From a virus: a stretch of 64,000 nucleotides of DNA. Shown here piece after piece: positions 4,027 through 25,158 of the stretch (within the stretch, counting starts at the first letter, position 1; each line of letters begins with the position of its first letter). The notes under the pieces are model-generated. The model saw only the letters and a program-made list of their open reading frames with translations. It made no database searches and had not been told where the DNA came from. Location: positions 1 to 64,000 of the IMG/VR virus record IMGVR_UViG_3300015371_000025. One strand, written 5' to 3'. The position numbers were made by a program, and so were the translations under genes.

Positions 4027-4061
4027 ATAGACACCTACCTACAGACTGGTAAGATACACCA

Positions 4062-4364
4062 ATGCTCGATTACTCCACTCCCCTGTCGATCGCGCCCGGC
4101 GAGGTCGCGCTGATGGAACTTCCGTTCAGCGAGGTGAACATGTGCATGGGCGTCGCTGGACGCGAGATGCGCGTGCGCCTCCTCGTCGGCGAGACGCGTG
4201 ACGGCCGCCTGACCTACGCTGCGCAGCTACTCCGCGAGGATGGCTCCAACTACTCGGCGCCGATCACGATCGGCGAGGCCGGGATCTTCCAGACGGGCTC
4301 GTACGAGTTCGGCTACCACTTTCACTACTACCCGCCCGCGAGCGAGGTGATCGCCAGCCGCTAG
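4062..4364 (+). CDS. Hypothetical 100-aa protein
   Basis: Leaderless: -35 TAGACA 4028-4033, -10 TAAGAT 4050-4055, six bases to the ATG. The -35 begins two bases past the stop of the previous gene. Mixed beta-strand-like sequence ending in a Tyr/His/Phe-rich segment (about 80-92). No family recognised. Confidence 0.7.
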   Translation: MLDYSTPLSIAPGEVALMELPFSEVNMCMGVAGREMRVRLLVGETRDGRLTYAAQLLREDGSNYSAPITIGEAGIFQTGSYEFGYHFHYYPPASEVIASR

Positions 4365-4385
4365 CGGTGACACCATAGGCGCGAG

Positions 4386-4409
4386 AGAGCCCGCTTCGGC
4401 GGGCTCTTT
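4386..4409 (+). terminator. Rho-independent terminator
   Basis: AGAGCCCGC (4386-4394), TTCG tetraloop, GCGGGCTCT (4399-4407), then a T-rich tail. Confidence 0.85.
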
Positions 4410-4419
4410 GTGTTTCTGT

Positions 4420-4589
4420 AGGTAAATAGACACCGCTGTAGCGGGGCTCGAGTAGCGCTGTCTACTAAGTCGCGTCGCAGGCGCCCGTTGGGCGGGCGAG
4501 GGGAAGTAAATAGACACGGCTGTAGGTAACAATAAATAGACACTGCTATCGCCGAGATAAATAGACAGCATCCTGTGGTGTGAGACTAT
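4420..4589 (+). repeat. Operator island III with promoter
   Basis: Inverted pair 4427-4437/4454-4464, direct copies 4511-4521 and 4537-4547, then TAGACA (4562-4567), 16-bp spacer, GACTAT (4584-4589). Same parts in the same order as island II. Confidence 0.7.
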
Positions 4590-4618
4590 GTACCTACAGA
4601 AACCGACCGGAGCCCGCC

Positions 4619-4813
4619 ATGACCTACAAGAACCGCTACATCATCGAGTCCTACTCCGAGCCCGACACGCGCGTGATCCGCTACGTGGTCGTCGACTCGA
4701 TCACCGGCCGCGACTTCGACGCGCGTGACTTCGGCTTCGCCCGTGCGGACTTCGCCACGGCTGCGGACGCGCAGGCTTTCCGCGCGAGCATCGTCGCGGA
4801 CATCGGCGAGTAA
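4619..4813 (+). CDS. Hypothetical 64-aa protein
   Basis: Start chosen at the ATG after CCGGAGCCCGCC; the island III promoter gives it a short leader. Tyr- and Asp-rich N-terminal half, Ala-rich helical C-terminal half. The stop TAA leads straight into the next promoter. No family recognised. Confidence 0.65.
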   Translation: MTYKNRYIIESYSEPDTRVIRYVVVDSITGRDFDARDFGFARADFATAADAQAFRASIVADIGE

Positions 4814-4814
4814 A

Positions 4815-4842
4815 TAGACACTCGCCTCCCACGTAGTACACT
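4815..4842 (+). promoter_or_regulatory. Promoter with Shine-Dalgarno leader
   Basis: TAGACA 4815-4820, 16-bp spacer, TACACT 4837-4842. Unlike most copies it is followed by a roughly 30-base leader with AGGAG before the ATG at 4880, so the same promoter type also drives leadered mRNA. Confidence 0.7.
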
Positions 4843-4879
4843 GTACCTACAGTCAATCACCGCCCTACAGGAGCACAGC

Positions 4880-5017
4880 ATGACCTTCAAGAGCTTCGCC
4901 GACCTCGCCAACCACATGAGCGCTGCGCAGAACGCGCAGGACGTGGCCGCCGCCAAGCGGCTGCGCAAGGCGCGGTCCCTGCCCGCGCCGAAGGTCGGGC
5001 CGAAGGTGGCCCGATGA
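4880..5017 (+). CDS. Hypothetical 45-aa protein
   Basis: ATG after CTACAGGAGCACAGC. Ala/Lys-rich, helical, with a basic Pro/Lys tail. First of three coupled mini-genes (ATGA overlap with the next). Function unknown. Confidence 0.55.
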   Translation: MTFKSFADLANHMSAAQNAQDVAAAKRLRKARSLPAPKVGPKVAR

Positions 5018-5094
5018 CGGCCGCCGAGAGGGACGCACAGCGCGAGCGCGTGCGTCGCAAGCGAGCCCGCAAACTCAACGGAAAGAGGAGCTAA
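5014..5094 (+). CDS. Hypothetical 26-aa basic peptide
   Basis: ATG overlaps the previous TGA. Sequence is dominated by Arg, Lys and Glu (about a third Arg/Lys). Its TAA overlaps the next ATG (TAATG). May be a nucleic-acid-binding micropeptide or simply a translated linker. Confidence 0.45.
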   Translation: MTAAERDAQRERVRRKRARKLNGKRS

Positions 5095-5198
5095 TGCTCT
5101 ACCCTGTCGTCCGCCCCACGACGAACGCGCCCACGGCGCACCCGGCGGTCAAGCCGCCGATCCGCGTCAAGCGGCGCATCATCCTCCACGTCATCTAG
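5094..5198 (+). CDS. Hypothetical 34-aa peptide
   Basis: ATG overlaps the previous TAA and lies five bases after GAGGAG. Pro/Thr/Val-rich with a basic C-terminal third. Third member of the coupled trio; the terminator follows directly. Confidence 0.45.
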   Translation: MLYPVVRPTTNAPTAHPAVKPPIRVKRRIILHVI

Positions 5199-5204
5199 CA
5201 GCGC

Positions 5205-5230
5205 GAGCCCCGGCGAAAGTCGGGGCTCTT
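5205..5230 (+). terminator. Rho-independent terminator
   Basis: GAGCCCCG (5205-5212), 8-base loop, CGGGGCTC (5221-5228), TT. Confidence 0.75.
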
Positions 5231-5240
5231 CGCGTTACGC

Positions 5241-5450
5241 GACTAAATAGACACCGCTGTGCTTGAGGGTCGACAGCCCTGTCGAATACCACGCGCCGTG
5301 CGCGCCCGCACGCGAGGGGCTCGAGTAAATGGACACGGCTGTAAATAGACACCGCTACAGCGAGGGATAAATAGACACTGCTATCCACCCCGAATAATGG
5401 ACACCGCTAGCGGCCGGGCAAATAGACAGGAGTTGCAGGTGTGAGACTAT
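5241..5450 (+). repeat. Operator island IV with promoter
   Basis: Inverted pair 5248-5258/5275-5285, four direct copies (5330, 5346, 5372, 5398), then TAGACA (5423-5428), 16-bp spacer, GACTAT (5445-5450). About 95 bp without a recognisable gene follow the promoter, so its product may be a short untranslated RNA or read-through into the 52-aa gene. Confidence 0.7.
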
Positions 5451-5580
5451 GTACCTACAGAGAGCGGGGCGGGCGGGTAAGACTCAAAGAGCCCGTGCGT
5501 CGCACCGCAGCGCAGCGGATAGACCGCGCGCCTCGCCTCTGTAAATAGACACCACGCGCTACAGGAGTAAACTACACCAC

Positions 5581-5739
5581 ATGTTCGTCATCCTCATCAC
5601 CTTCGCCGACGCGCCTTCGATGGGCGCCCTGTTCTCCGAGGGCGAGTACACCTTCGGTGAGGCGATCGACCGCGCGTGGGCGTGGAATCGCTCCGGGCAG
5701 TTCACTGTGGAGATCGTCCCGGCGGACGACGACCGCTAA
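5581..5739 (+). CDS. Hypothetical 52-aa protein
   Basis: Leaderless: -35 TAGACA 5546-5551, -10 TAAACT 5568-5573, seven bases to the ATG. Hydrophobic N-terminus and an acidic C-terminus (PADDDR). The TAA stop begins the next promoter. No family recognised. Confidence 0.65.
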   Translation: MFVILITFADAPSMGALFSEGEYTFGEAIDRAWAWNRSGQFTVEIVPADDDR

Positions 5740-5774
5740 ATAGACACCACACCTACAGAGGGTACACTACAGAC

Positions 5775-6200
5775 ATGGCTTACAAGAGCAAGACGGACTT
5801 CAACGTCAACCGGATCCACGAGTGGGCGGACATCCTCGACCTCCCGTGGGGCGAGATGCCGGGCGAGCGCTCGGAGGCGATCGACGCCTACAACGACTAC
5901 TACGGCGAGCACTCGTTCAGCTCCCGCATGTGGCTGAATCTCTACGAGGTCGGCTACGTGTACTGCGGCCCGGAGGAGGGCGGCTGGGGCATCACGGTGT
6001 CCACCCCGTTCGCCTGCGTCCCCGTCACCTCGCGAGAGGGCGCGCTGCGGGCGCTCGAGATTCTCGAGGAGGCCGCCCGCGAGGAGTTCGGCGACCAGCG
6101 GGAGTACACCTCCGCCGCCGGTGGCGCGGATGGCACCATCGTCCTCGAGTCGCGCCGGTTCGCGTCCGAGTGGGACGGGACGGTCCCCCACTACGAGTAG
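5775..6200 (+). CDS. Hypothetical 141-aa protein
   Basis: Leaderless: -35 5741-5746, -10 TACACT 5763-5768, six bases to the ATG. Acidic, Tyr/Trp-rich, with a helical segment near residues 95-112. Its end overlaps a strong hairpin. No family recognised. Confidence 0.75.
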   Translation: MAYKSKTDFNVNRIHEWADILDLPWGEMPGERSEAIDAYNDYYGEHSFSSRMWLNLYEVGYVYCGPEEGGWGITVSTPFACVPVTSREGALRALEILEEAAREEFGDQREYTSAAGGADGTIVLESRRFASEWDGTVPHYE

Positions 6201-6232
6201 GGGGACCGGCGGGGCGGGCTTCGGCCCGCCTT
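6181..6232 (+). terminator. Double hairpin terminator
   Basis: CGGTCCCCC/GGGGGACCG (6181-6189 and 6200-6208) spans the stop codon; GGCGGGC-TTCG-GCCCGCC (6213-6230) plus TT follows. Confidence 0.8.
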
Positions 6233-6245
6233 GCCACCCGGTATC

Positions 6246-6283
6246 TTGACGCCGCTATGGGGCTCCCCTGCCAGCGGTGTCAA
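6246..6283 (+). repeat. Isolated inverted operator pair
   Basis: TTGACGCCGCT (6246-6256) and AGCGGTGTCAA (6273-6283) face each other with a 16-bp gap, total span 38 bp, just after a terminator and before the next promoter. Confidence 0.65.
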
Positions 6284-6331
6284 CTATCCGCAGTAAATCG
6301 ACACGTACCTACAGACTGATAGGATTCACCC

Positions 6332-6628
6332 ATGAGCTTGACGATCATCACCAACAACGTCCCCCGCTTCACGGTCGACGCGTACGAACTGACGCCTGCC
6401 GAGCGGCGCGACTTCGACTATCTCGACTGGGACGCCATCGACCGGGGCGAGAGCGGGGCCACGTTCTTCCGCTACCGTGGCAACCTCTACGATCTCAGCG
6501 AGATCCTCGCAGCGCCGGGCTCCCTCGCGCCGTGGGAGGGCTACGCCTCCGACAGCTACTTCTCGGGCATCGTCGTGCGCTTCACGAACGACTCCGAGGA
6601 GGTCATCGTGGGGCGCTACTACTCCTGA
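6332..6628 (+). CDS. Hypothetical 98-aa protein
   Basis: Leaderless: -35 TCGACA 6298-6303, -10 TAGGAT 6320-6325, six bases to the ATG. Acidic, Tyr/Phe-rich; the pattern of short hydrophobic strands suggests a small alpha/beta fold. No family recognised. The last gene before the 1-kb non-coding array. Confidence 0.7.
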   Translation: MSLTIITNNVPRFTVDAYELTPAERRDFDYLDWDAIDRGESGATFFRYRGNLYDLSEILAAPGSLAPWEGYASDSYFSGIVVRFTNDSEEVIVGRYYS

Positions 6629-6668
6629 AACGCCCCCGAACGGGTGTCAACTAGCGGTTTACGCGTAT

Positions 6669-6736
6669 CAGGGGGTCCCCGTGGCCCCCTGAACCACCCC
6701 CAATGTGTGCGGAACGGCCCCTGAATGGGGCCGTTT
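6669..6736 (+). terminator. Tandem terminators
   Basis: CAGGGGG/CCCCCTG (6669-6675, 6685-6691) and AACGGCCCC/GGGGCCGTT (6713-6721, 6727-6735) with a T-rich tail after the second. Confidence 0.8.
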
Positions 6737-7600
6737 CTGTAGGTACGTAGCGCGCGGAAGCGGCTAAATAGACAGCGCTGTTGTCCTGTAGGCACAGCCG
6801 TGACCAATAACCTACAGGTGAGGGCCAGAAAGTAATAGACACCGCTGTAGGTGAAGGGCTCGAGCGGTGTAAACTATCGGTTTACATCTGAGATGCGCGG
6901 GGAAAGTAATGGACACGGCTGTCAGAGGGCGATTCCAGCCCTGTCTAATACCCTCCGGCGGGGGCTCGCGGGGGTGCGGGCGAGGCTAAATTGACACCGC
7001 TATCCCCGTGCTAGAGCCAAATGTGGGTGTGCAACGTGTAGGTAAATAGACACCGCTACAAGTGACAACTCTTAGTTGACACGGCTGTGCTGCGCGACGT
7101 AGGGACCCGCACACCAGCAAGGGATAATGGACACCGCTGCGAGGGGCCGAGGGTGCGCGAGGCAAATTGACACCGCTGCAAATGGACACGGCTAGCTGCG
7201 GTGTGCGAGTGCGTGTCTATTACCCTAGTAGTAATGGACACTACTATTCGGGGGCGCGAATTGGGTCTCGATTAGTGTGTAGCTAATGGACACGGCCGCA
7301 GGAGGTGCTACTCGCGGGCGCCTATCGGGAGCGGGGCTCGGGCAAATAGACACCGCTGTAAACCAACGGTTGAATCATGTCGAAATTGTGCCCATTTGCA
7401 GGGAAAATAGACACTGCTACCAACGGTTGTCAATCCCTTGCTAAATGGACACCGCTGTAGGTAGGAAACCGGGGGCTCGAATAATCGACAGGAGTCCTAG
7501 CTAGCGTAGTCTACCGGGTGTCAGCAAGACAGAGAGCACGGGCGCCGGTCGACGGGGCGCCGAGCGAGTAAATAGACACCACACTCCTACAGAGTAAAGT
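6737..7600 (+). repeat. Operator array VI, main non-coding repeat region
   Basis: About 860 bp without a gene. Forward TNGACACNGCT-type copies begin near 6769, 6836, 6910, 6991, 7047, 7076, 7128, 7167, 7183, 7235, 7287, 7347, 7408, 7446 and 7485; inverted copies face three of them (6796-6806, 6863-6873, 6937-6947). Most copies have no -10, so they are better read as protein-binding sites than as promoters. Candidate operator cluster, replication origin or partition site. Confidence 0.7.
7573..7600 (+). promoter_or_regulatory. Promoter without an obvious gene
   Basis: TAGACA 7573-7578, 16-bp spacer containing CTACAG, TAAAGT 7595-7600. Five bases later a GTG opens a 16-codon frame. Confidence 0.6.
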
Positions 7601-7605
7601 ACAGG

Positions 7606-7656
7606 GTGCAGCGCAGGACACCGGCCCGGATCACGCGGGACGGGGCGAGTAAATAG
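7606..7656 (+). CDS. Possible 16-aa leaderless peptide
   Basis: GTG frame of 16 codons between two promoter copies; its TAG is the first triplet of the next TAGACA. The geometry matches real cassettes, but GTG is not used by other leaderless genes here and the length is minimal. It may be a decayed cassette. Confidence 0.2.
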   Translation: MQRRTPARITRDGASK

Positions 7657-7688
7657 ACACCGATCACCTACAGCGTAGAATGGACACC

Positions 7689-7979
7689 ATGATGAACACT
7701 CCCATTGAGGTCGAGCGCAGGAAGAGCAAGCAGGGTGCAGAGGCGGCTGCGCGGCGCGCGAACGCGTCGGCGTTCCCCGGACAGCGCTACTCGGTCGAGC
7801 GCATCGCGACGCGCGACTGGGCCGTGGTCCTGTTCGATGGCGGCGCGGCCGACAATCGGTCGAGCATCACGCACAGCCTGCCCGTGCGCGCCGAGCGGCT
7901 GCGCGAGCGTGACTTCTCGGCGCTCGGCGGGAAGCGTCAGCATCACCGTGCGAGCACGGTCTACCGGACCATCGGCTAA
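7689..7979 (+). CDS. Hypothetical 96-aa basic protein
   Basis: Leaderless: -35 7654-7659, -10 TAGAAT 7676-7681, seven bases to the ATG; an ATG at 7680 overlaps the -10 and is unlikely. N-terminal third is Arg/Lys/Ala-rich and helical, like DNA-binding tails; the rest is mixed. No family recognised. Confidence 0.65.
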   Translation: MMNTPIEVERRKSKQGAEAAARRANASAFPGQRYSVERIATRDWAVVLFDGGAADNRSSITHSLPVRAERLRERDFSALGGKRQHHRASTVYRTIG

Positions 7980-8015
7980 ATAGACACGAACCTACAGACT
8001 GGTAAAGTACACACC

Positions 8016-8480
8016 ATGAGCTACCTCAACGACTCCATCAGCGCGGTCGAGACCGCCGAATACGCCACCCGTGGGCTCGGCCCGTTCGATACGGCCGACC
8101 ATGATCCGGCCGAGCTTATCGCTCTGGCGGGCTACTACATCCGCCGCGAGGCGTTCGCTGAGCGCGTCGCTGAGGTGCTCGACGGGCTCGACTACATCCC
8201 CGGCGAGTACCGCGATCGGTTCGTCGATGGCGGCATGGTGCCCGGCGAGTACGCCATCCATCGCGGGAACGCACAGCCCGACTACGCACAGCCGCACAGC
8301 CTGCGCCTGCGGGTGAATTCCCTGCACGTGACCGTTCAGGCGCTCGATGGCGACCGTAGCCGCGTCGTGGCCGCACTCATCGGCGCCGGTGTGGTCTCCG
8401 GCTGGGACGGCGACGAGACCGCGCCGGACGGCTTCACCGAAGCATTCTCGGATCACGGCTGGATCTCGGTCCGCCGCTAA
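8016..8480 (+). CDS. Hypothetical 154-aa protein
   Basis: Leaderless: -35 7981-7986, -10 TAAAGT 8003-8008, seven bases to the ATG. Acidic, with a helical first half and a beta-rich second half. No family recognised. Confidence 0.75.
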   Translation: MSYLNDSISAVETAEYATRGLGPFDTADHDPAELIALAGYYIRREAFAERVAEVLDGLDYIPGEYRDRFVDGGMVPGEYAIHRGNAQPDYAQPHSLRLRVNSLHVTVQALDGDRSRVVAALIGAGVVSGWDGDETAPDGFTEAFSDHGWISVRR

Positions 8481-8481
8481 A

Positions 8482-8509
8482 TAGACACTCAACTACAGAG
8501 AGGTAGACT
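8482..8509 (+). promoter_or_regulatory. Representative leaderless promoter cassette
   Basis: Type example of more than 30 near-identical copies. TAGACA (8482-8487) starts two bases after a stop codon, a 16-bp spacer carries CTACAGAGAGG, and the -10 TAGACT (8504-8509) ends six bases before the ATG at 8516. Across copies the -10 varies as TACACT, TAAACT, TAAGAT, TAGACT or TAAAGT; the spacer is 16 bp, rarely 17. Confidence 0.8.
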
Positions 8510-8515
8510 ACTCCC

Positions 8516-8791
8516 ATGCCCACCGTTCAGAACCTTCCCGCCGCCGACGTTCAGGTGCAATTCCCGTCCGGCGAGGTCAAGACCATCTTCCTGCTCCGCC
8601 TGCTCGGCATCGTCCAGCACGCCGAGATGATGGCCCGATTCGGCCACGGCATCGCCCGCAACGCGCCGACGCTGCGCGAGGTGCGCGAGGAGCTTGAGAT
8701 CCCCGCGAGCGTGTGCCGCACGTGGGCACAGGCTGCGCCGATGCTGCGCGAGTTCTACAACGATCTCACGGCGCACCTGCGCGACGCGTAA
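8516..8791 (+). CDS. Hypothetical 91-aa protein
   Basis: Leaderless from the 8482-8509 promoter. Short beta-like N-terminus (about 1-25) followed by helices; the later part (REVREELEIPASVCRTW) has a helix-turn-helix feel but no clear family match. Confidence 0.7.
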   Translation: MPTVQNLPAADVQVQFPSGEVKTIFLLRLLGIVQHAEMMARFGHGIARNAPTLREVREELEIPASVCRTWAQAAPMLREFYNDLTAHLRDA

Positions 8792-8826
8792 ATAGACACG
8801 AACCTACAGAGAGGTACACTACTTCC

Positions 8827-9072
8827 ATGAGCGAGCATCTCCCCACTTCCACCCTACAGCGCGCTGCGTTCGCACTCAACGCGGGCATCGCCCGCATGCA
8901 GGACCGAATCGCTGACGCGGCGCCCAACTCGGCCGACGACGTGATGCGCGAGCACTTCCTCGCCGAGATCCGGCGCGACCGTGCGGCGCGCGACGACCTG
9001 TCGCGCATCCTGCGCGAGCGGGAGGCGGCCGAGCGGGACGCCATCCGTCACGGCTGCTACGGCAACGGCTAA
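8827..9072 (+). CDS. Hypothetical helical 81-aa protein
   Basis: Leaderless: -35 8793-8798, -10 TACACT 8815-8820. Almost entirely helical, Arg/Glu/Asp-rich, likely coiled coil in the second half. Gene contains an internal CTACAG. Function unknown. Confidence 0.7.
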   Translation: MSEHLPTSTLQRAAFALNAGIARMQDRIADAAPNSADDVMREHFLAEIRRDRAARDDLSRILREREAAERDAIRHGCYGNG

Positions 9073-9107
9073 ATAGACACCATCTCCTACAGGGGTACAC
9101 TACTTCC

Positions 9108-9323
9108 ATGACGCACACCGATCACATCTCCGCGCCGCGCTTCTCGTCCGGCGACTATCTCGGCCACTACCCCTGCACCATCGTGCGCGCCCTTCCCACG
9201 GGCGACTCCAATCCGGGCTACCTCGTCCGATTCGAGGACGGGCACGAGGCGGGCGCCTTCCGGCGCGAGCTTCGGGCCACCATGCACGGCTGGTCGACCA
9301 TCGACGCGGCCGACGCGGCGTAA
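9108..9323 (+). CDS. Hypothetical 71-aa protein, possible SH3-like barrel
   Basis: Leaderless: -35 9074-9079, -10 TACACT 9096-9101. Strand pattern with YLVRFEDGHEAG at about residues 39-50 resembles small SH3/Tudor-like barrels; this is a fold guess only. Confidence 0.65.
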   Translation: MTHTDHISAPRFSSGDYLGHYPCTIVRALPTGDSNPGYLVRFEDGHEAGAFRRELRATMHGWSTIDAADAA

Positions 9324-9358
9324 ATAGACACTCACCTACAGCGAGGTAAGATACTCCC

Positions 9359-9691
9359 ATGCACATCACAGAGGACACCGTAGTCACCATCGCCGAGCGG
9401 GCCGACTCCGACCGCGAGCACAGGATCTTCGCAGTCACGATCGAGACCCCGTTCACGATCGAGATGCAGCGGTGCCCGACCTTCATCTATCCCGGCGACC
9501 CCGACCATCCGGGCGGCGACGTTGGCATGGTCGAGGCGTCCTACCGTTCGTGGGGTGTCTGGGATGCCCGCGTGGCCGACTGGGCTCGCGTCTCGGCCGG
9601 ATGGCAGGACGCGTCGCACTTCGGCTCGCGCGGCGAGGCGGAGGCGTGGCTGCGCGACAATCTCGCGGACCTGCTCGCCTATAAACACTAA
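9359..9691 (+). CDS. Hypothetical 110-aa protein
   Basis: Leaderless: -35 9325-9330, -10 TAAGAT 9347-9352. Trp-rich C-terminal half (several Trp between about 60 and 100). Its last codons contain the -35 (TAAACA) of the next gene, the only clear case where that box lies inside coding sequence. No family recognised. Confidence 0.7.
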   Translation: MHITEDTVVTIAERADSDREHRIFAVTIETPFTIEMQRCPTFIYPGDPDHPGGDVGMVEASYRSWGVWDARVADWARVSAGWQDASHFGSRGEAEAWLRDNLADLLAYKH

Positions 9692-9715
9692 CCTACAGCG
9701 AGGTACACTACTCCC

Positions 9716-9934
9716 ATGAGCAATCCCAAGCGACCCTATCGCGGCATGCGCGGCGACTACGTACTTGAGCAGGAGTACAACGGCGTCTGGATCGTCGCTT
9801 CCGGCGGATCCGAGGATCGCTGCAAGCAGGACGCGCGCCGCTATACGAACGGTCTCGCGCTCGGGCGCGGGCTGCGCATCACGCCGAACCGGCCCGGCGA
9901 CCCCGTGGCTGAGGGCTCCTACCGGCCCGCGTAA
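9716..9934 (+). CDS. Hypothetical 72-aa protein
   Basis: Leaderless: -35 TAAACA 9682-9687 inside the previous gene, -10 TACACT 9704-9709. Basic, Gly/Arg/Tyr-rich. The gene gap is only 24 bp, yet promoter-to-start spacing is unchanged. Function unknown. Confidence 0.7.
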   Translation: MSNPKRPYRGMRGDYVLEQEYNGVWIVASGGSEDRCKQDARRYTNGLALGRGLRITPNRPGDPVAEGSYRPA

Positions 9935-9970
9935 ATAGACACTCACCTACAGCGAGGTAAGATACTTCAC

Positions 9971-10207
9971 ATGATCCACGTCAACGTCCGATCTAACCCG
10001 AGCGAGCACGCTCACCCCGCCGAGTGCATCGTGGAAACGTCCACGGACGGCGCCGGATGGCGGACGCAGTACGTCGTGAGCTACACCATCGGCGACCACG
10101 GTGGGCGCCCGCGACAGGAGGCGGAGCACATCGCCCGCGTGATGGGCGTCGCTTGGACCTACGCCGGTGTCCCGTGGCGCGGAACGTCGCACGGGTACGC
10201 GCTCTAA
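9971..10207 (+). CDS. Hypothetical 78-aa protein
   Basis: Leaderless: -35 9936-9941, -10 TAAGAT 9958-9963, seven bases to the ATG. Beta-strand-like first half and a helix containing RQEAEHIARVMG near residues 52-63. No family recognised. Confidence 0.7.
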   Translation: MIHVNVRSNPSEHAHPAECIVETSTDGAGWRTQYVVSYTIGDHGGRPRQEAEHIARVMGVAWTYAGVPWRGTSHGYAL

Positions 10208-10242
10208 ATAGACACTGACCTACAGCGAGGTACACTACTCCC

Positions 10243-10590
10243 ATGAACGCAACGACTCCCATCCCCTTCGCTCACCCGCTGAGCGCCGATCATCTCGATG
10301 CCCGCTACAGCGTGGACGGTTGGGGCCGCATCGCGGTCTACATCGTCGGCTGGACGACCGAAGAGGTCTACGAGGGTGACTACCTCATCTGCCCGGACGA
10401 TGACTGCGACCACACCGCGAGCGAGATGTGCTGGATCGAGGGCGATACCTCGCTCATCGACGGCGAGATGCTCCGTGTCGTGATGGTCGGCGACGACCGC
10501 GAGCACATCGTCGACCCCGAGGATCTCGTCCGGCTGGACGAGGACGAATACTGCGGGTGCTGCGGGCAGCTTGGCTGCCCGTGGGGATAA
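10243..10590 (+). CDS. Acidic Cys-rich 115-aa protein
   Basis: Leaderless: -35 10209-10214, -10 TACACT 10231-10236. Very acidic. Cysteines cluster in CPDDDC, a further Cys about 8 residues on, and the C-terminal CGCCGQLGC, compatible with one or two zinc sites. Function unknown. Confidence 0.7.
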   Translation: MNATTPIPFAHPLSADHLDARYSVDGWGRIAVYIVGWTTEEVYEGDYLICPDDDCDHTASEMCWIEGDTSLIDGEMLRVVMVGDDREHIVDPEDLVRLDEDEYCGCCGQLGCPWG

Positions 10591-10624
10591 TAGACACGAA
10601 CCTACAGAGAGGTACACTTCTCCC

Positions 10625-11083: not shown

Positions 11084-11118
11084 ATAGACACGAACCTACA
11101 GAGAGGTACACTTCCATC

Positions 11119-11325: not shown

Positions 11326-11360
11326 ATAGACACACTCCTACAGAGAGGTAAGATACTCCC

Positions 11361-11864: not shown

Positions 11865-11901
11865 ATAGACACCACCCCTACAGAGAGGTAAACTACTTCC
11901 T

Positions 11902-12726: not shown

Positions 12727-12743
12727 CCCGTCGCCGGATAATT

Positions 12744-12887
12744 GACACCGCTAGGGCTCGAGTTCCAAGCGGTGTCGACTATCCCGGCCGCCACCCTCCC
12801 GCCGTAAATGGACACCGCTGTTCCGGTGGCGCTCGATCCTGTCCATTTGCAGGGAATAATCGACACCATGCCTACAGATGGGAGAAT
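12744..12887 (+). repeat. Operator island VII with leaderless promoter
   Basis: Inverted pair 12744-12754/12770-12780, a second weaker pair starting 12810, then TCGACA (12860-12865), 16-bp spacer and GAGAAT (12882-12887). Occupies the whole gap between terminator and next gene. Confidence 0.65.
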
Positions 12888-12894
12888 GCCGTCC

Positions 12895-13050: not shown

Positions 13051-13086
13051 ATAGACAGCGACCTACAGAGAGGTACGATGGTGTCC

Positions 13087-13314: not shown

Positions 13315-13350
13315 ATAGACACTGACCTACAGAGAGGTAGACTCCACACC

Positions 13351-13713: not shown

Positions 13714-13748
13714 ATAGACACCACAACCTACAGAGGTACACTTCCATC

Positions 13749-14102: not shown

Positions 14103-14137
14103 ATAGACACGAACCTACAGAGAGGTACACTCCCACC

Positions 14138-14506: not shown

Positions 14507-14541
14507 ATAGACACGAACCTACAGAGAGGTACAATCATCCC

Positions 14542-15159: not shown

Positions 15160-15194
15160 ATAGACACGAACCTACAGAGAGGTACACTCCCATC

Positions 15195-15542: not shown

Positions 15543-15577
15543 ATAGACACGAACCTACAGAGAGGTACACTACTCCC

Positions 15578-16039: not shown

Positions 16040-16073
16040 TAGACACGAACCTACAGAGAGGTACACTACTCCC

Positions 16074-16970: not shown

Positions 16971-17005
16971 ATAGACACACAACTACAGAGAGGTACACTA
17001 CTCCC

Positions 17006-17861: not shown

Positions 17862-17897
17862 ATAGACACACTCCTACAGAGAGGTAAACTACATCCC

Positions 17898-18665: not shown

Positions 18666-18671
18666 TCCATC

Positions 18672-19132: not shown

Positions 19133-19199
19133 AATAGACACTCTTCTGCTACAGACTAACATGTAGCTACAAACTTCACTCCGAACGAAAGGACACTCC

Positions 19200-19451
19200 A
19201 TGCCCGACACCATGAACATCAATCAGGTGCGCACCGCCGCACTGAACACGCCTGACCACAACTCGGCTCTCCTCTGCGCCATCGTCTACCTTGGCGACTC
19301 CATCCGCGAGGCTTGCAGCGACATCGGTCCGGCCATCGCCGACAGCGGTCGCAGCACGTCGGCCGAGCTTGGCGATGTGGCGCTCTCGCTGCGCGATCTC
19401 GGTCGCGAGTTCGCGGGCATCACCGCCGCTGTCGACGGGATCGGCAAGTAG
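19200..19451 (+). CDS. Hypothetical 83-aa protein
   Basis: Promoter TAGACA 19135-19140 and TAACAT 19157-19162; leader with GAACGAAAGGA before the ATG, a leader motif seen at several other genes. Helical, Ala/Leu-rich with many Asp/Ser. Directly abuts the next gene. Confidence 0.7.
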   Translation: MPDTMNINQVRTAALNTPDHNSALLCAIVYLGDSIREACSDIGPAIADSGRSTSAELGDVALSLRDLGREFAGITAAVDGIGK

Positions 19452-20099
19452 ATGTCCCGCTACGTCGGCGGTGTCGAGGGCAAGGGTCGCATGGTCCAGC
19501 GCGTCGGCACGCAGCGCAGCGGCATGAAGGTCCACGCCGCGAGCGGCGAGAGCCGAGTCGACGTGGAGCTTCACGGCGGTCCCGGCTTCGACTGGGCCAA
19601 CATCAGCATCTACGGCGAGCGCGGACGGCACCATCTGCCCGGCTTCAACCTGGAGCTTGTGGCGGCTGCACTCGACTCGGGCGACCCAAAGACCCTGCGC
19701 ATCTGGAACCGCATCCAGAGCGACATCCGGCGCCTGCACGACGACGCACCGAAGGCGATCAAGCGTGCCGAACGCCGTCGCCGGAACGAGGAGGAGGCCG
19801 CCCAGCGCGAGCACGCGCTCAGGCTGGAGACTCAGCGCGCCTTCGCCGAGACCATCACGGACGCCGAGGCCGAGCACTTCATCGCGCTCACCGGACTGAC
19901 GAACGACGAGAGCGACCGCGAGGCGCTCCTCGCTAGGGCCAAGCACGCTGCGGCGAGCCCCGAAGTCATGGAGCCCCGCCGCAAGGACGGGCACCTGTTC
20001 GTGGCCACCATCATCGGCATCGGCTGGGACAGCAGCGTCAAGTTCCTGAACCTGACGGACGGCATCGAGGTCGATCTCGATGCAGTCCCCGTAGTCTAA
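19452..20099 (+). CDS. Hypothetical 215-aa protein
   Basis: ATG immediately after the TAG of the 83-aa gene. N-terminal basic region, a central Gly/Phe-rich segment, a charged coiled-coil-like helix (about 100-130) and a strand-rich end. The coiled coil hints at oligomer formation. No family recognised. Confidence 0.7.
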   Translation: MSRYVGGVEGKGRMVQRVGTQRSGMKVHAASGESRVDVELHGGPGFDWANISIYGERGRHHLPGFNLELVAAALDSGDPKTLRIWNRIQSDIRRLHDDAPKAIKRAERRRRNEEEAAQREHALRLETQRAFAETITDAEAEHFIALTGLTNDESDREALLARAKHAAASPEVMEPRRKDGHLFVATIIGIGWDSSVKFLNLTDGIEVDLDAVPVV

Positions 20100-20135
20100 A
20101 TAGACACCTACCTACAGATAGGAGATACTACTCCC

Positions 20136-20573
20136 ATGAAGCGAATCGTGCTGTACCTAGACCTCGTTGCGCCCGAGCAGGACGAAGCTCTGCTGCGCGA
20201 CCCCGAGTCGGGCCGCATCGTGCTCGACGCCGTGAACGACTACCTGCCCGAGCCGTTCTCACTGATCGACGCCGGTGGCGATGATCTGCTCGCGCTGCAC
20301 ATGATGCTCTACCCCGAGCGCTACCCGCGCTCGGCTCAGCCCGATCACGTCTACTGGGACAACTTCGATTCCGAGGCCGACGCAGACTACGGCGAGATCG
20401 AAGAAAACGCCTCCGTCGAGGACATCGCTGCGGCCGTCGAGGCGGCTACCGCCAAAGCCGAGGCCGAGTGGCGCGAGTCTCCCTTCGAGTGGAACAGCGG
20501 CACGATCGAGTGGGTCGGCACCTATCTCGAACAGCGACTCGCTGGCACGAGCCACCCCGGCTACAAGTCCTAA
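20136..20573 (+). CDS. Hypothetical acidic 145-aa protein
   Basis: Leaderless: -35 20101-20106, 17-bp spacer, -10 GATACT 20124-20129. Very acidic (Asp/Glu through residues 60-115). DNA-mimic function is conceivable from charge alone but unproven. Confidence 0.7.
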   Translation: MKRIVLYLDLVAPEQDEALLRDPESGRIVLDAVNDYLPEPFSLIDAGGDDLLALHMMLYPERYPRSAQPDHVYWDNFDSEADADYGEIEENASVEDIAAAVEAATAKAEAEWRESPFEWNSGTIEWVGTYLEQRLAGTSHPGYKS

Positions 20574-20608
20574 ATAGACACACCCCTACAGAGAGGTACA
20601 CTATGACC

Positions 20609-21316
20609 ATGAAGCTCAACAACGGCACCACCCAATTCAACATCGACGAGAGCATCGCAGGCCACCTGCTCTGGGAGGCCATGCGCGACTTCCGCGAGGC
20701 TTACGCTGCGCTGACGCAGGCCGCCCACCAGGGCGTGACCGATCTCGAAGATGCCGACACGCCGGACGACAGTGCCATCCGCAAGTTCGCGGTCGCCGCT
20801 GCCGAAGCCTCCTCCAAGATCACCGAGGCGCTCCAGCGCGCTCGCCTGATGCACTACGGCGACGTGTACGACGAGCTGATCAACCGCGAGGATCTCGGCC
20901 CCGAGGTCGACGGCCATCGCAAGACGGTCTACACCAAGCTCAGCATGGCCGACAAGAGCGTCACCCACATCCGCGAGATCAACACCGGCATGAGCCTGCT
21001 CGCCGGTCTCAACGTCTGGGACGACGACAAGGGCAAGCGCCGTCAGCCGATCGTCGCGATCAACACCGAGGGTCTGCGGCGTGAGTTCACCTACGGCGAC
21101 GACGGCGGCATGCCGATCATCGACGTGGACATCAACGACGCCGACATCTTCGATGACGCTGGCGCTGGCGACAAGATCCGCTCGGACGCCGAGTCGATGA
21201 AGCACCGGCTGATGCAGGCCCACATGGCCGCGCAGGGCAAGGGCGACCAGGGCGCGTTCGACGTGTGGAACGAGGTCGCGGACATCATCGGAATCAAGCG
21301 CGAGGAGGAGTCGTAA
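20609..21316 (+). CDS. Hypothetical 235-aa protein
   Basis: Leaderless: -35 20575-20580, -10 TACACT 20597-20602. ATG at 20609 is chosen over 20603 because six bases separate -10 and start elsewhere. Helical, acidic, with a central Lys/Arg-containing segment. Leads a coupled set of three (20609-21812). No family recognised. Confidence 0.75.
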   Translation: MKLNNGTTQFNIDESIAGHLLWEAMRDFREAYAALTQAAHQGVTDLEDADTPDDSAIRKFAVAAAEASSKITEALQRARLMHYGDVYDELINREDLGPEVDGHRKTVYTKLSMADKSVTHIREINTGMSLLAGLNVWDDDKGKRRQPIVAINTEGLRREFTYGDDGGMPIIDVDINDADIFDDAGAGDKIRSDAESMKHRLMQAHMAAQGKGDQGAFDVWNEVADIIGIKREEES

Positions 21317-21513
21317 TGGACCGCGTAACCATCTACACGCTGGTAGTCACCGAGGGCGAGCGCACCCACGACGACACGGGTTCGCCCATGAAGTTCCACG
21401 CCGAGCTTGCCCACAACGGCATCATCCTGAGCCAAGGCTGGGGCGAGTTCGCTGTCGACGCTGCCAACGAGGCGATCGCCAACGGCGTCAGCGACGAGGA
21501 GGCTGTGGCGTAG
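21316..21513 (+). CDS. Hypothetical 65-aa protein
   Basis: ATG overlaps the TAA of the previous gene (TAATG), with GAGGAGGAG as ribosome site. Strand-helix pattern ending in an acidic helix. Ends in TAGTG. No family recognised. Confidence 0.65.
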   Translation: MDRVTIYTLVVTEGERTHDDTGSPMKFHAELAHNGIILSQGWGEFAVDAANEAIANGVSDEEAVA

Positions 21514-21812
21514 TGAACTACACCGTCATCCTGCGGGACTACAGCGAGCACCGCTGGGGCTCAACTCGCGTGGTGGTCGAGAGCGGCGAGACCGCCTACG
21601 ACGCGGCGCAGTACGCCGAGATCACCATCGCGACCGAGACCTTCGGCAAGCTCTGGCCCGGCGTCGATCCCATCGACGGCAATCACGACGACGACTGGAT
21701 GTCCTGCATGGATTCCGTGGGCGTCGTGGCCGTCATCGAGGGCACGCCCAAGACGTACTACGAGGACGCGATCACCGAGAACGATCTGTCCGAGTGGATC
21801 GTCAACGCCTAA
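21513..21812 (+). CDS. Hypothetical 99-aa protein
   Basis: GTG start inside TAGTG with GAGGAGG upstream. Similar strand-helix plan to its neighbour, with an acidic middle (DGNHDDDW). No family recognised. Confidence 0.65.
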   Translation: MNYTVILRDYSEHRWGSTRVVVESGETAYDAAQYAEITIATETFGKLWPGVDPIDGNHDDDWMSCMDSVGVVAVIEGTPKTYYEDAITENDLSEWIVNA

Positions 21813-21848
21813 ATAGACACGGTTCTACAGAGAGGTAAACTACATCCC

Positions 21849-22121
21849 ATGAGCTACTCCATCATCACCTACAAGAGCAAGAACGTCGGCAACGGCCCGA
21901 TGCGCGAGGTCAAGCGCGAGCGCGTCGCCACCATCGAGGAGGCCCGCGACGAGGCCACCGCCATCGTTCAGGACGCGATGGACTCGTTCAGCGAGGACCG
22001 CGACGTGCTCCGTCGCTACGGCTTCCTCGCCTGCGAGGAGGCGGCGCTCGACGCGTCCGAGGACGGGGCCATGATCCTCCTCCCGAACGCCTACGTAATC
22101 CACATCTCGGTCGCCGACTGA
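21849..22121 (+). CDS. Hypothetical 90-aa protein
   Basis: Leaderless: -35 21814-21819, -10 TAAACT 21836-21841, seven bases to the ATG. Small alpha/beta pattern. Ends in TGATG, coupling it to the next gene. Confidence 0.7.
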   Translation: MSYSIITYKSKNVGNGPMREVKRERVATIEEARDEATAIVQDAMDSFSEDRDVLRRYGFLACEEAALDASEDGAMILLPNAYVIHISVAD

Positions 22122-22330
22122 TGTGCTTCTGCAAGCACGGCCACGACGACGGGCTCTGGGAGGGCGGTCCCTGCGCGAACGAGGAGACCGCCAAGCTCTT
22201 CGGCAAGCTCTGCGCTGAACGAGGCATCGAGCCCGACTCCGACACGCCCGAGGCCGACGCCGCCTACGAGGAGGCGTCCGAGCGGGTCGAGGCCCGCAAG
22301 GTGCGCCAGGACAGCATCCGCTTCGAGTAA
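22121..22330 (+). CDS. Cys/His-containing 69-aa protein
   Basis: ATG overlaps the previous TGA. N-terminus MCFCKHGHDDG followed by a Cys about ten residues later could bind zinc; the rest is an acidic helix. Function unknown. Confidence 0.65.
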   Translation: MCFCKHGHDDGLWEGGPCANEETAKLFGKLCAERGIEPDSDTPEADAAYEEASERVEARKVRQDSIRFE

Positions 22331-22365
22331 TAGACACGAACCTACAGAGAGGTAAACTTCCCATC

Positions 22366-22740
22366 ATGAACAAGACGATCAACATCGCACCGGCGCCGCA
22401 CGTCATTCAGACGGCGCTCAAGGACGCGGGCATCCCGCTCCAGTACAACGACGACCACACGGTCACCATCGACAGCCACGGCACCGGCTGGGACTCCAAC
22501 GGCCACATCTCGATGTCCGAGGACTCGGCTCTGGTCCCGATCATCCAGGGCGCCGTCACGCTCGCGATGGAGCGCTACTTCGAGCGCACGATGGTGCTCC
22601 CGAGCAACATCCGCGCGATCAACGAGGTCGCCGACGAGCTGGTCAACCTGCGCCACGCGGGTCGCTCGGAGGACTCCGAGTGGATCGACGAGATGATCGA
22701 GCGCCTCCACAGCGTCGCGATCAACCTGGAGCCCCGATGA
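22366..22740 (+). CDS. Hypothetical 124-aa protein
   Basis: Leaderless: -35 22331-22336, -10 TAAACT 22353-22358. Strand-rich first half and helical second half. First gene of a coupled string running to 23421. No family recognised. Confidence 0.7.
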   Translation: MNKTINIAPAPHVIQTALKDAGIPLQYNDDHTVTIDSHGTGWDSNGHISMSEDSALVPIIQGAVTLAMERYFERTMVLPSNIRAINEVADELVNLRHAGRSEDSEWIDEMIERLHSVAINLEPR

Positions 22741-22994
22741 CCTACAACCTGGAGCCCGGCGCCATCCGGGACGTGCTCGACCTGCTGCGCGGCCGGATCG
22801 AGCGCAACGTCAACCTAATCGACGAGCTGAACGCCGCGAACCACAACGCGATCGTGGACGGCGACGTGCTGCACGCGATGTCGCTGCACCAGCAGGCTTC
22901 CCGCTTGCAGGGCGAGGTCGACGCCTACGGCTACGCCGTAGCCGCCATCGAGACGCGCACGCGCGTCGGCATGGAAAAGGTGGACCAGCGATGA
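22737..22994 (+). CDS. Hypothetical helical 85-aa protein
   Basis: ATG overlaps the previous TGA. Two long helices rich in Leu, Asn and Arg; coiled-coil dimer plausible. No family recognised. Confidence 0.65.
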   Translation: MTYNLEPGAIRDVLDLLRGRIERNVNLIDELNAANHNAIVDGDVLHAMSLHQQASRLQGEVDAYGYAVAAIETRTRVGMEKVDQR

Positions 22995-23194
22995 GCCAGC
23001 TCTCACAGAACGAGATCGACCGCCTGTTCCGTGCGTCGGCTCTGCGCTCATACGCCCGGCGCGAGGCCACCTACCAGGCCGAGCGCGACCGCATCCTGGG
23101 CAGCACACACCGCTGGGCTGTCCTGGCTTGCGGCACGGCCGCAGCGATGGTCATCCTGGCCTTCCTGCTCCTGCTCACCGTGGTGACCCGCTGA
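22991..23194 (+). CDS. Small membrane protein, 67 aa
   Basis: ATG overlaps the previous TGA. Residues about 43-65 are a strong hydrophobic span at the C-terminus; the N-terminal 40 residues are charged and would face the cytoplasm. Ends in TGATG. Possible tail-anchored factor of host takeover. Confidence 0.65.
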   Translation: MSQLSQNEIDRLFRASALRSYARREATYQAERDRILGSTHRWAVLACGTAAAMVILAFLLLLTVVTR

Positions 23195-23421
23195 TGCCCG
23201 AGTACAGCGAGTGCCGGGCCGACGAAGTGAACATCGATGACCTCATCGATCTGGAGAACGACGAGTTCGCCGACCCCGAGGACCGGCGGCACATCTTCCC
23301 CTACGAGCACGCCCGCGTGATCGGCTTCGAGCGCGAGACGGAGGACTGCATCCGCATCGACTTCGACAACACGTCGATCGGCTTCCCCGTCGCACACATG
23401 CTCCGTCGATTCGACGGCTAA
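23194..23421 (+). CDS. Hypothetical acidic 75-aa protein
   Basis: ATG in the TGATG overlap. Very acidic N-terminal half (VNIDDLIDLENDEFADPED), then strands. No family recognised. Confidence 0.65.
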   Translation: MPEYSECRADEVNIDDLIDLENDEFADPEDRRHIFPYEHARVIGFERETEDCIRIDFDNTSIGFPVAHMLRRFDG

Positions 23422-23499
23422 CACCTACAAACGAATAATAGACACGGTTGACCAGTACGGTATACTGTGTCTACAGTTCACCCAGAACGAAAGGATCCC

Positions 23500-23796
23500 A
23501 TGCACTACTCAATCGAACGGCGTCATCTGGAGAGCGGTCTCTGCGAGGACGTTTGCTACGTGCCCGGCCACACGCTCGGCAACGGCTGGACGCGCCACAT
23601 CGTCGAGCTGGCCGAGGGCGACACGGCCGACAACCCGTGCTCGACCAAGGGGCCGATCTACGGCCCGGCGTTCGTCACCTACGACTGCCACCGCTCCGGC
23701 ATCACGGTCCACGTCGACAACAACGCGGGCGAGTTCTACGACGCGCTCTACGAGACTCGCAAGCAGCGCGAACAGATGATGGCCGATCGTGCCTAA
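23500..23796 (+). CDS. Hypothetical 98-aa protein
   Basis: Promoter TAGACA 23439-23444, 16-bp spacer, TATACT 23461-23466; leader contains CCAGAACGAAAGGA before the ATG. Three Cys in the first 70 residues. Heads a coupled five-gene run to 25126. Confidence 0.7.
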   Translation: MHYSIERRHLESGLCEDVCYVPGHTLGNGWTRHIVELAEGDTADNPCSTKGPIYGPAFVTYDCHRSGITVHVDNNAGEFYDALYETRKQREQMMADRA

Positions 23797-24025
23797 CGAG
23801 CTTGCGCAGCAGTTCATCGACGCCGCGCCGACACCGTTCGTGGCCGCCTGCGAGTTCATGAGTTCGCTCATGGCAGGCGATCCGGCGACGTTCAAGGTCG
23901 GCTACTCGGCTGACAACGCCTACCTGGCGACGCGCGAGTGCTTCGACGACGCGCTCGACAACGACCAGTGGCGCGCAATCGCCGAGCTTCACCACGTTTC
24001 GCATCGGACAAGGGAGATGGCATGA
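23789..24025 (+). CDS. Hypothetical 78-aa protein
   Basis: GTG start overlapping the last codons of the previous gene by eight bases. Helical. No family recognised; the overlap and the downstream ATGA junction support it. Confidence 0.6.
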   Translation: MPNELAQQFIDAAPTPFVAACEFMSSLMAGDPATFKVGYSADNAYLATRECFDDALDNDQWRAIAELHHVSHRTREMA

Positions 24026-24255
24026 GCGGTTGGCCGACCATTCACATCACAGCAAGCCAGATGGTCGCGCTCGGCAGACTCGTAGGGGGCACCTTTGATC
24101 ACGGCGGCTCAACCGCTCAACTGGTCGAGCCCGAGCACGAGCTTGGCGGCGCATTCATGGGCCGCTGGGAAGTTCAACTCGCACCTGACGGCGACCTGCG
24201 TCTGCGCGACGTGGAGCGCGACTTCTACATCACTCCGGGAGGGAGCATCCGATGA
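24022..24255 (+). CDS. Hypothetical 77-aa protein
   Basis: ATG overlaps the previous TGA; GGGAGATGG is the ribosome site. Mostly strands, Gly/His-rich. Overlaps the next gene by ATGA. Confidence 0.65.
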   Translation: MSGWPTIHITASQMVALGRLVGGTFDHGGSTAQLVEPEHELGGAFMGRWEVQLAPDGDLRLRDVERDFYITPGGSIR

Positions 24256-24587
24256 GCAACACGTACGAGAGCATCAGCGCCGAGGACTTCGACGCGCTCG
24301 CTCGGGAGATGGGCGTCATCACCCGGCGAGGCATGCGCAAACTCACTGACGCGGGCCGCGCTGCGGTGGCGCACGTCCTGCGCGATCTCGACGACGAGGA
24401 GCGCTACAGCATCGTCCTCATGAGCAGCAACGGCCGCTGGGACTGGCACATGGTCGACGGCACGACCCGCGTGTGGCACTTCACCGAGGACGGCGAGGTG
24501 TCATGGAACATGCTGCCCGATCGCGTCGAGAACAGCGTGCTGCACAACGCCTACGATCTCGGCTTCAAGGAAGGGCCGCACCTGTGA
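24252..24587 (+). CDS. Hypothetical 111-aa protein
   Basis: ATG overlaps the previous TGA with GGGAGG upstream. N-terminal helices, then a Trp-rich strand region (about 62-85). Overlaps the next GTG. Confidence 0.7.
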   Translation: MSNTYESISAEDFDALAREMGVITRRGMRKLTDAGRAAVAHVLRDLDDEERYSIVLMSSNGRWDWHMVDGTTRVWHFTEDGEVSWNMLPDRVENSVLHNAYDLGFKEGPHL

Positions 24588-25126
24588 GCAAGCGCAGTGG
24601 AAACCCCGCCAAGGCGGCGTGGGATCCGATCCAGGTCGGCCCTGCTCGGCGCGAGGGCGCGTTCGGCATGTCCGGCGCGTTCTACGAGACCGAGGGGCGC
24701 AAGCACCACTACAGCTACAGGGACCCACAGCGCGCAACCGCGTGCCTGGCGTTCTTCAACCGGCTCTACAACGGATTCGCTCTCGTCTTCGAGGACGAGT
24801 CCATGCACCTCAGCTTCAAGCGCAACGACCGCGCTGCCGTCCGTGACTGGCGCCATTTCCAGGCGATCAAGAACGAGGTGGCCGGTCCCGATCGCGAGGC
24901 GATCGAGATCTATCCGCCCGAGTGGAACCTGATGGACTCGGCAAACGAGTACCACCTCTTCGTCCTGCCGCCCGGCATGGGCTCTCCGATGGGCCTTGAG
25001 GGCACCGGCGGGGTGGGAGAGGCTGCGAACAACCACGACCACGCTTCGTACCGCCAGGGCGGCGCGAGCGGCTATCAACAGCGCGACTGGGAGCCCGGCA
25101 TTCCGACCGGGCTCGGCAAGAAATAG
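24584..25126 (+). CDS. 180-aa protein, DUF7694-like domain
   Basis: GTG start overlapping the previous TGA. Residues about 88-132 (DWRHFQAIKNEVAG, then EIYPPEWNLMDSANEYHLFVLP, given in part) match the pattern I associate with DUF7694, a domain frequent in phages and of unknown role. C-terminal tail is Gly/Gln-rich. Its TAG stop is the first triplet of the next promoter's TAGACA. Confidence 0.7.
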   Translation: MSKRSGNPAKAAWDPIQVGPARREGAFGMSGAFYETEGRKHHYSYRDPQRATACLAFFNRLYNGFALVFEDESMHLSFKRNDRAAVRDWRHFQAIKNEVAGPDREAIEIYPPEWNLMDSANEYHLFVLPPGMGSPMGLEGTGGVGEAANNHDHASYRQGGASGYQQRDWEPGIPTGLGKK

Positions 25127-25158
25127 ACACCAACCTACAGAGAGGTAATATACATCCC

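Follow-up and report, generated by a model that had tools for sequence, protein, structure and literature searches.

The DNA analysed here, referred to below as the window, comprises 64,000 nucleotides (G000:C1:1-64000) and makes up most of a 67,404-bp IMG/VR record from an uncultured tailed phage with 64% GC. Between positions 4028 and 25158 it carries 33 junctions of about 35 bases, all on the + strand, which share the layout TAGACA, a 16- or 17-nt spacer, TANNNT, 6 or 7 nt and ATG, and most of which directly connect the stop codon of one gene with the start codon of the next. We consider it highly likely that each junction is a sigma70-type promoter with its transcription start (+1) on the A of the ATG, so that the block would constitute an array of leaderless promoters.

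The geometry of the junctions is tightly constrained. Within the window, the pattern TAGACA-N15-18-TANNNT matches 35 times, against 0.12 matches expected from dinucleotide shuffles. In the curated set of 33 junctions, the -35 hexamer is TAGACA in 30 cases, TCGACA in two and TAAACA in one; the spacer measures 16 nt in 31/33 and 17 nt in 2/33, and contains CTACAG throughout; the -10 hexamer reads TANNNT in 31/33 and GANNNT in 2/33; and the distance from the -10 to the ATG is 6 nt in 21 junctions and 7 nt in 12 (the second in-frame ATG being used at 20609). An initial annotation had described these elements in the same terms (TAGACA, a 16-bp, rarely 17-bp, spacer with CTACAG, a -10 and 6-7 bases to ATG), and the 33 copies bear it out. 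It had also reported stop-to-start gaps of 33-38 bp at more than 30 boundaries; this is slightly high, as there are 33 junctions but fewer such boundaries. An upstream open reading frame (ORF) is directly abutted by 29/33 junctions, the other four coming after non-coding DNA, and the gaps of these 29 range from 24 to 37 bp, with 27 falling within 33-38 bp and the others measuring 24 and 32 bp. Of the 29 upstream ORFs, 28 end in TAA and the remaining one in a TAG inside TAGACA. The proteins flanked by the junctions are mostly non-paralogous, with only two weak pairs within the block, and the array is therefore not a duplicated gene.

Sequence evidence for the proposed leaderless initiation

In the mechanism that we propose, the upstream gene would end in a TAA touching the -35 box, or in a TAG inside it, which amounts to a minimal gene-to-gene joint; a promoter of the host sigma70 type (TAGACA-16-TANNNT) would come directly after this stop; and RNA polymerase would initiate 6-7 bp past the -10. 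The first transcribed base would then be the A of the following ATG, and the gene would be translated as a leaderless mRNA.

Multiple features of the sequence point in this direction. Transcription starts are expected to combine a pyrimidine at -1 with an A at +1, and the base at -1 of the ATG is C in 31/33 junctions. Before the predicted gene starts of the phage, TANNNT is found in 29 cases at 6 or 7 nt and in a total of 5 cases at the other 13 distances between 0 and 14 nt; no comparable peak is seen in the relatives. In leaderless genes, which exceed 20% in Actinobacteria and Deinococcus-Thermus, the start characteristically follows the first T of TANNNT at a distance of about 12 bp (PMC3160421); this distance is 12 or 13 bp in all junctions, as in the TA-led leaderless genes of bacteria. 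Moreover, between 2.2 and 20 kb there are 33 promoter-like sites with a -35 and a -10 separated by the 16-18 nt typical of sigma70 promoters, versus 2.6 in shuffles. CTACAG slides by 1-3 nt in 7 junctions (offsets 5, 6, 7, 8), with the spacer still 16 nt long in 6/7 of these. Furthermore, the junctions co-vary with start and stop codon usage: the start codon is ATG in 33/33 junction genes versus 74/99 elsewhere (p=5e-4), a comparison biased by our gene calls, which come from our own codon-usage script with a penalty on GTG and TTG starts and make gene counts approximate, and the upstream stop is TAA in 28/29 cases versus 14/103 elsewhere (p=4e-17).

The phage also supplies internal controls. 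A scan of 67 kb with a position weight matrix, which had been suggested initially, detected only five further promoters at the score of the junction set, all on the + strand, and four of these belong to genes with a leader and a Shine-Dalgarno (SD) sequence at normal spacing from the start. The four are located at 4815..4842 (gene 4880, SD CTACAGGAG), 19135..19162 (gene 19200, SD GAAAGGA), 23439..23466 (gene 23500, SD GAAAGGA) and 29659..29687 (TCGACA-17-TACACT, with the SD GAAGGAGGGA upstream of the ATG at 29717). The fifth, at 7573..7600, has no clear gene; a GTG 5 nt past its -10 opens a 16-codon ORF, and the site is possibly an empty or decayed unit. The earlier proposal that each gene has its own promoter and starts at its first base is thus backed, at the level of sequence, by the junction geometry, the C at -1, the uniform ATG and the contrast with the leadered promoters. 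The hexamer CTACAG is not confined to the junctions: leadered promoters have it just past their -10 (GTACCTACAG), it forms part of SD motifs (CTACAGGAG), and the opposite strand carries it directly after terminators (CTGTAGGTAAAT).

Several points weigh against this reading. TAGACA is a weaker -35 than TTGACA, the 16-nt spacer is below the usual 17, and the junction promoters match 9-10 of the 12 consensus bases. The spacer CGAACCTACAGAGAGG is identical in nine junctions, and such spacer-wide conservation is more than a promoter alone needs. We found no close relative that could show selection on the junctions. Terminators on the + strand are at best weak after 8 kb in the 2.2-20 kb stretch scanned. 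Finally, the string GAGAGGT pairs with the anti-SD about as well as the SDs of other genes do (calculated duplex energy about -7.4 to -7.9 kcal/mol for the majority of junctions), and read-through RNA could therefore be translated to some extent from an SD.

Layout of the junction block

Most of the junctions between 4 and 17 kb head single genes. These comprise junction 1 (4028..4061, TAGACA-16-TAAGAT-6; gene 4062-4364); junction 2 (5546..5580; gene 5581-5739), preceded by non-coding DNA; junction 3 (5741..5774; gene 5775-6200); junctions 4 (6298..6331, with TCGACA; gene 6332-6628) and 5 (7654..7688; gene 7689-7979), both again preceded by non-coding DNA; junctions 6 (7981..8015; gene 8016-8480), 7 (8482..8515; gene 8516-8791), 8 (8793..8826; gene 8827-9072), 9 (9074..9107; gene 9108-9323) and 10 (9325..9358; gene 9359-9691); junction 11 (9682..9715; gene 9716-9934), which has TAAACA and overlaps the end of the upstream gene; junctions 12 (9936..9970; gene 9971-10207), 13 (10209..10242; gene 10243-10590), 14 (10591..10624; gene 10625-11083), 15 (11085..11118; gene 11119-11325) and 16 (11327..11360; gene 11361-11864); junction 17 (11866..11901, with a 17-nt spacer; gene 11902-12438); junction 18 (12860..12894, with TCGACA and GAGAAT; gene 12895-13050), preceded by operator-like pairs; and junctions 19 (13052..13086; gene 13087-13314), 20 (13316..13350; gene 13351-13713), 21 (13715..13748; gene 13749-14102), 22 (14104..14137; gene 14138-14506), 23 (14508..14541; gene 14542-15159), 24 (15161..15194; gene 15195-15542), 25 (15544..15577; gene 15578-16039) and 26 (16040..16073; gene 16074-16970).

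From 17006 on, several junctions head small operons of overlapping genes. Junction 27 (16972..17005) heads an operon of three genes (17006-17861) and junction 28 (17863..17897) one of two genes (17898-18595); junction 29 (20101..20135), with a 17-nt spacer and GATACT, precedes the gene 20136-20573; junctions 30 (20575..20608), 31 (21814..21848) and 32 (22331..22365) head the operons 20609-21812, 21849-22330 and 22366-23421; and junction 33 (25124..25158), where the upstream stop is the TAG inside TAGACA, heads the operon 25159-26250. At junction 30 an in-frame ATG touches the -10 and the second ATG is 6 nt off; the same arrangement, with an ATG touching the -10 before an ATG at the leaderless position, is found at 3790-3796 as well as at 20603-20609, and the annotated start is ambiguous at both.

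Given that the terminators are at best weak, transcripts should overlap or nest and read-through RNA must exist. The initial picture of single-gene units accordingly holds for the majority of units between 4 and 17 kb and has to be qualified for the small operons from 17006 on and for the nested transcripts; 'single-gene unit' is a term that fits translation better than transcription. GAGAGGT lies upstream of the -10, that is, outside the predicted RNA of the gene itself and on read-through RNA alone. In such RNA the GAGGT would be too distant from the start (12-13 nt) for efficient use, and most output should therefore come from the gene's own start.

Operator-like sites and a possible regulator

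The -35 half of the junction, AATNGACAC, occurs 69 times in the window against 0.9 expected, with 68 copies on the + strand and one on the - strand. Roughly half of them are located outside the junctions, mostly without a -10. They form nine convergent pairs with arms 40-41 bp apart, several with CTCGAG between the arms, and tandem runs with a period of 25-27 bp, in which the last member serves as the -35 of a putative promoter with GACTAT or GAGTAT. When ATT/AGT variants are included, approximately ten sites point the opposite way as members of convergent pairs. The orphan sites are distinguished from the junctions by a free second base of the hexamer and by CGCT after GACAC.

The operator-like blocks are distributed over the first 13 kb, on the + strand, and two of them come after terminator-like hairpins at 3586 and 4384. 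The region 3000..3796 contains the convergent pairs 3000/3041, 3083/3123 and 3625/3666 and the tandem runs 3164, 3189, 3216 and 3709, 3734, 3760, the last member of each being the -35 of a GACTAT/GAGTAT promoter. The block at 4423..4590 combines the pair 4425/4466 with the tandem 4509, 4535, 4560, followed by TAGACA-16-GACTAT and a leader with CTACAG, and that at 5244..5460 combines the pair 5246/5287 with the tandem 5328/5344, 5370, 5396, 5421, followed by TAGACA-16-GACTAT. A non-coding stretch at 6767..7510 holds about 15 further sites of this type, and two convergent pairs (12740/12780 and 12807/12847) occupy 12739..12858, upstream of junction 18.

We infer that a sequence-specific phage regulator may bind the AATNGACAC element common to the junctions and the operator blocks, and could switch the set together; none of the predicted proteins was identified as a candidate for this role. 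An alternative that we regard as rather unlikely goes further and holds that the repeats are primarily binding sites of such a regulator, similar to operators or stoperators, with an incidental -35-like GACA, such that regulation rather than transcription start would be conserved. The large excess of sites, about half of them away from the junctions, and their paired and tandem arrangement are in line with this possibility, as is the precedent of the Cluster A stoperators, which also occur in large numbers, are asymmetric and follow the direction of transcription (PMC6550527, PMC9283540). However, the junctions also preserve the -10, the fixed distance to ATG, the C at -1 and the ATG itself, none of which a repressor site needs; CGCT after GACAC is a feature of the orphan sites and not of the junctions; and Pfam searches with the predicted proteins, most of which are ORFans, revealed no recognizable repressor or integrase. 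A regulator site and a leaderless promoter are compatible, and both may be true of the same junction.

Alternative readings: recombination, read-through and chance

The initial annotation had compared the block to a gene-cassette array that could promote shuffling through its homologous ends, and gene shuffling through the junctions is a hypothesis here as well. That the junctions are kept as short homologies for gene exchange is, as an explanation of the array, improbable. It would account for the nine identical spacers and for flanked genes of which few are paralogous and hardly any occur in relatives; moreover, the phage encodes a RecA/UvsX-like protein, and recombination between 17-bp repeats has been inferred as the cause of deletions in cluster O mycobacteriophages (PMC4351075). 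Against it, no rearranged, empty or duplicated site was seen, the similarity of neighbouring junctions is marginal (identity p=0.04; Hamming p=0.2), and identity is concentrated on the promoter positions, where selection explains it.

An ordinary polycistronic operon, in which GAGAGGT would be the SD of each gene on a read-through mRNA and the -10 match incidental, appears still less probable. Its duplex energy, similar to that of other genes' SDs, and the lack of good terminators between the units fit this interpretation. The initial statement that there is no room for a ribosome site applies to the 6-7 nt separating the -10 from the ATG, but farther upstream, 12-13 nt before the ATG, an SD-like GAGGT or GAGG is present in 26/33 junctions. 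This spacing, however, is outside the 2-10 nt at which the SD matches of the other genes of the phage mostly lie, none of those of 5 nt or longer being found at 11-14 nt. Four junction genes (4062, 7689, 8016 and 9108) have no SD match of at least 4 nt and keep the promoter geometry. Altogether, in 30/33 junctions the SD-like string is at 12-13 nt or absent, leaving no SD at a working distance, and the three exceptions, with matches at 5, 9 and 10 nt, are genes 6332, 12895 and 20136. In addition, the leadered promoters of the same family place the SD at its normal spacing, and TANNNT stands 6-7 nt before starts much more often than chance would produce.

As origins of the junctions, chance and the tandem duplication of a single gene unit are refuted by the 0.12 matches expected and by the mostly unrelated encoded proteins, and misassembly is very improbable.

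Relatives and analogous arrays

The terminase of the phage is common to 25 IMG/VR loci, the nearest of which has about 60% amino-acid identity, apart from one fragment that is 100% identical. The core genes are shared with the relatives at roughly 30-60%, whereas hardly any gene of the 4-26 kb block occurs in them, and the terminase and RecA relatives lack the array. The junction motif was not found in any of the terminase relatives (0/18 records), which lack the junction-block genes themselves. Two cassette genes have remote mycobacteriophage homologues, and these sit in ordinary, largely SD-led operons. No match was obtained in exact-motif scans of viral and GTDB contigs; one looser hit, L164, was rejected as a chance match inside an AT-rich gene; a loose pattern yielded only single matches; and a blastn search of the consensus junction against cultured phages and plasmids returned only partial matches with E about 8-9. 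In a relative, G009 (L157-L159), the repeat GGAGTAGTCA-ATG was rejected as an SD-type start motif, not a leaderless one. The repeated AGGAGTAGTCA-ATG in the same relative fuses SD, TAG stop and start, and can be viewed as an SD counterpart of the stop-signal-start principle.

Analogues of the architecture were picked by counting from a generic scan that listed at least 120 loci. One of them, G019 (74.8 kb, with a T4-like portal and 33% GC in the part read), has 14 pattern matches, most of them near-identical; 11 places in it are within 3 mismatches of TTGACACCTCCTCCTAAAGCATATAGAATAAG, and nine of these belong to the pattern matches and immediately precede an ATG. In positions 1-20000 of its loci (L257/L295), on the minus strand, the cassette spacer CACCTCCTCC resembles the anti-SD sequence. 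The second analogue, G020, and its kin G021 and G022 (L240/L285/L297; 36-37% GC) have 23, 15 and 16 matches with unconserved spacers; at several junctions of this group the TGA stop of the upstream ORF lies inside TTGACA, and the stop-to-start gaps are 30-31 bp. A reversed control pattern gave 0 matches in all four records. The proteins of the window phage have no match in the compared stretches of these phages. Since the analogues are unrelated and share no proteins in the compared stretches, the stop-promoter-start junction appears to recur independently in at least two unrelated uncultured phages.

More tentatively, the junction might be a general solution, reached convergently, by which phages operate sets of small accessory genes as independent leaderless units, with the stop in or against the -35, the start at +1 and a gap of exactly one promoter. 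In the window phage, AATNGACAC would then let one regulator control dozens of units together with the operator arrays. We see this generalization as possible, with the balance of probability against it.

Comparison with known repeat families

In the Thermus phages phiYS40 and P23-45, genes are read from leaderless mRNAs; we know of no repeated stop-promoter-start cassette in these phages. The leaderless genes of Actinobacteria and Deinococcus-Thermus (PMC3160421) share with the junctions the -10 position and consensus, the ATG at the predicted +1 and a high GC content, but their promoters are scattered singly, whereas in the window a near-identical promoter of 32-35 bp is present 33 times and touches the preceding stop. 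Cluster O mycobacteriophages such as Corndog have, similarly, an intergenic repeat that is present in more than 30 copies, and recombination between these has been inferred (PMC4351075); there, however, the repeat is a palindrome separate from the three leaderless promoters (PL1, PR2, PL2), whereas the window repeat would itself be the leaderless promoter.

Start-associated sequences (SAS) and similar motifs of cluster K and of the Microbacterium clusters EF, EC, EG and EI resemble the junctions as short conserved motifs of unproven function before small non-structural actinophage genes; nevertheless, SAS is an over-conserved ribosome-binding site, the EC/EG motifs lie 14-30 bp upstream, and none is described in those papers as a complete -35/-10 promoter adjoining the ATG (PMC7302621, PMC12699233). 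The conservation in the junctions is that of the -35 and -10, not of a 13-bp GGGATAGGAGCCC-like ribosome-binding site beside the start. The promoter-early/stem-loop elements (PeSLs) found in T4-like phages (Arbiol 2010 and Comeau 2014, cited in PMC4503421) are also small repeated intergenic promoter elements with a proposed role in gene shuffling; as described there, they join a promoter to a stem-loop terminator, whereas no terminator-like site was found on the + strand inside the junctions in the 2.2-20 kb stretch scanned, and the window phage is not T4-like. The Cluster A stoperators (PMC6550527, PMC9283540) are many, asymmetric, oriented with transcription and in some cases located in promoters, and the AATNGACAC sites share with them the asymmetry, the orientation and the location in short intergenic gaps; they differ in that the 20-30 Cluster A sites are bound by a known repressor, whereas Pfam matches revealed none here and roughly every second site belongs to a predicted promoter. 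With respect to integron cassette arrays, there is no integrase among the Pfam matches, and the junction has the structure of a promoter; attC structures were not separately searched. The junction array does not fully fit the definition of any of the repeat families compared.

Discussions of leaderless translation in phages mostly concern individual promoters; here 33 near-identical ones are predicted. Together with the matched leadered controls in the same genome, they would offer a natural experiment on promoter-to-start geometry. They also suggest an annotation rule for small accessory genes, namely a stop, 33-38 bp and an ATG that is preceded at 6-7 nt by TANNNT. Because at least two other uncultured phages have this architecture with unrelated sequences, it is more likely a recurrent solution than an oddity, and the shuffling idea becomes testable.

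Gene content and host

The minus-strand half of the record encodes proteins matching terminase, portal and head morphogenesis proteins, RecA/UvsX, ThyX and a DnaE-type polymerase. No close cultured relative was found, and megablast of the junction block against cultured phages gave no match; a search of GTDB genomes with the terminase, aimed at the host, likewise gave none. Two cassette proteins match mainly proteins of mycobacteriophages and Gordonia phages, which indirectly suggests an actinobacterial host.

At 18637-19131, a promoter-like site is followed by about 460 nt of non-coding DNA with a 15-bp GC hairpin at its end, which may specify a non-coding RNA of the phage; the stretch folds only slightly better than shuffles (z=-1.67), and Rfam gave no match for it or for the window. 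Finally, the protein encoded at 26311-26859 combines a conserved N-terminus, with a homologue in G006, and a long, histone-like tail rich in Ala, Lys and Pro.

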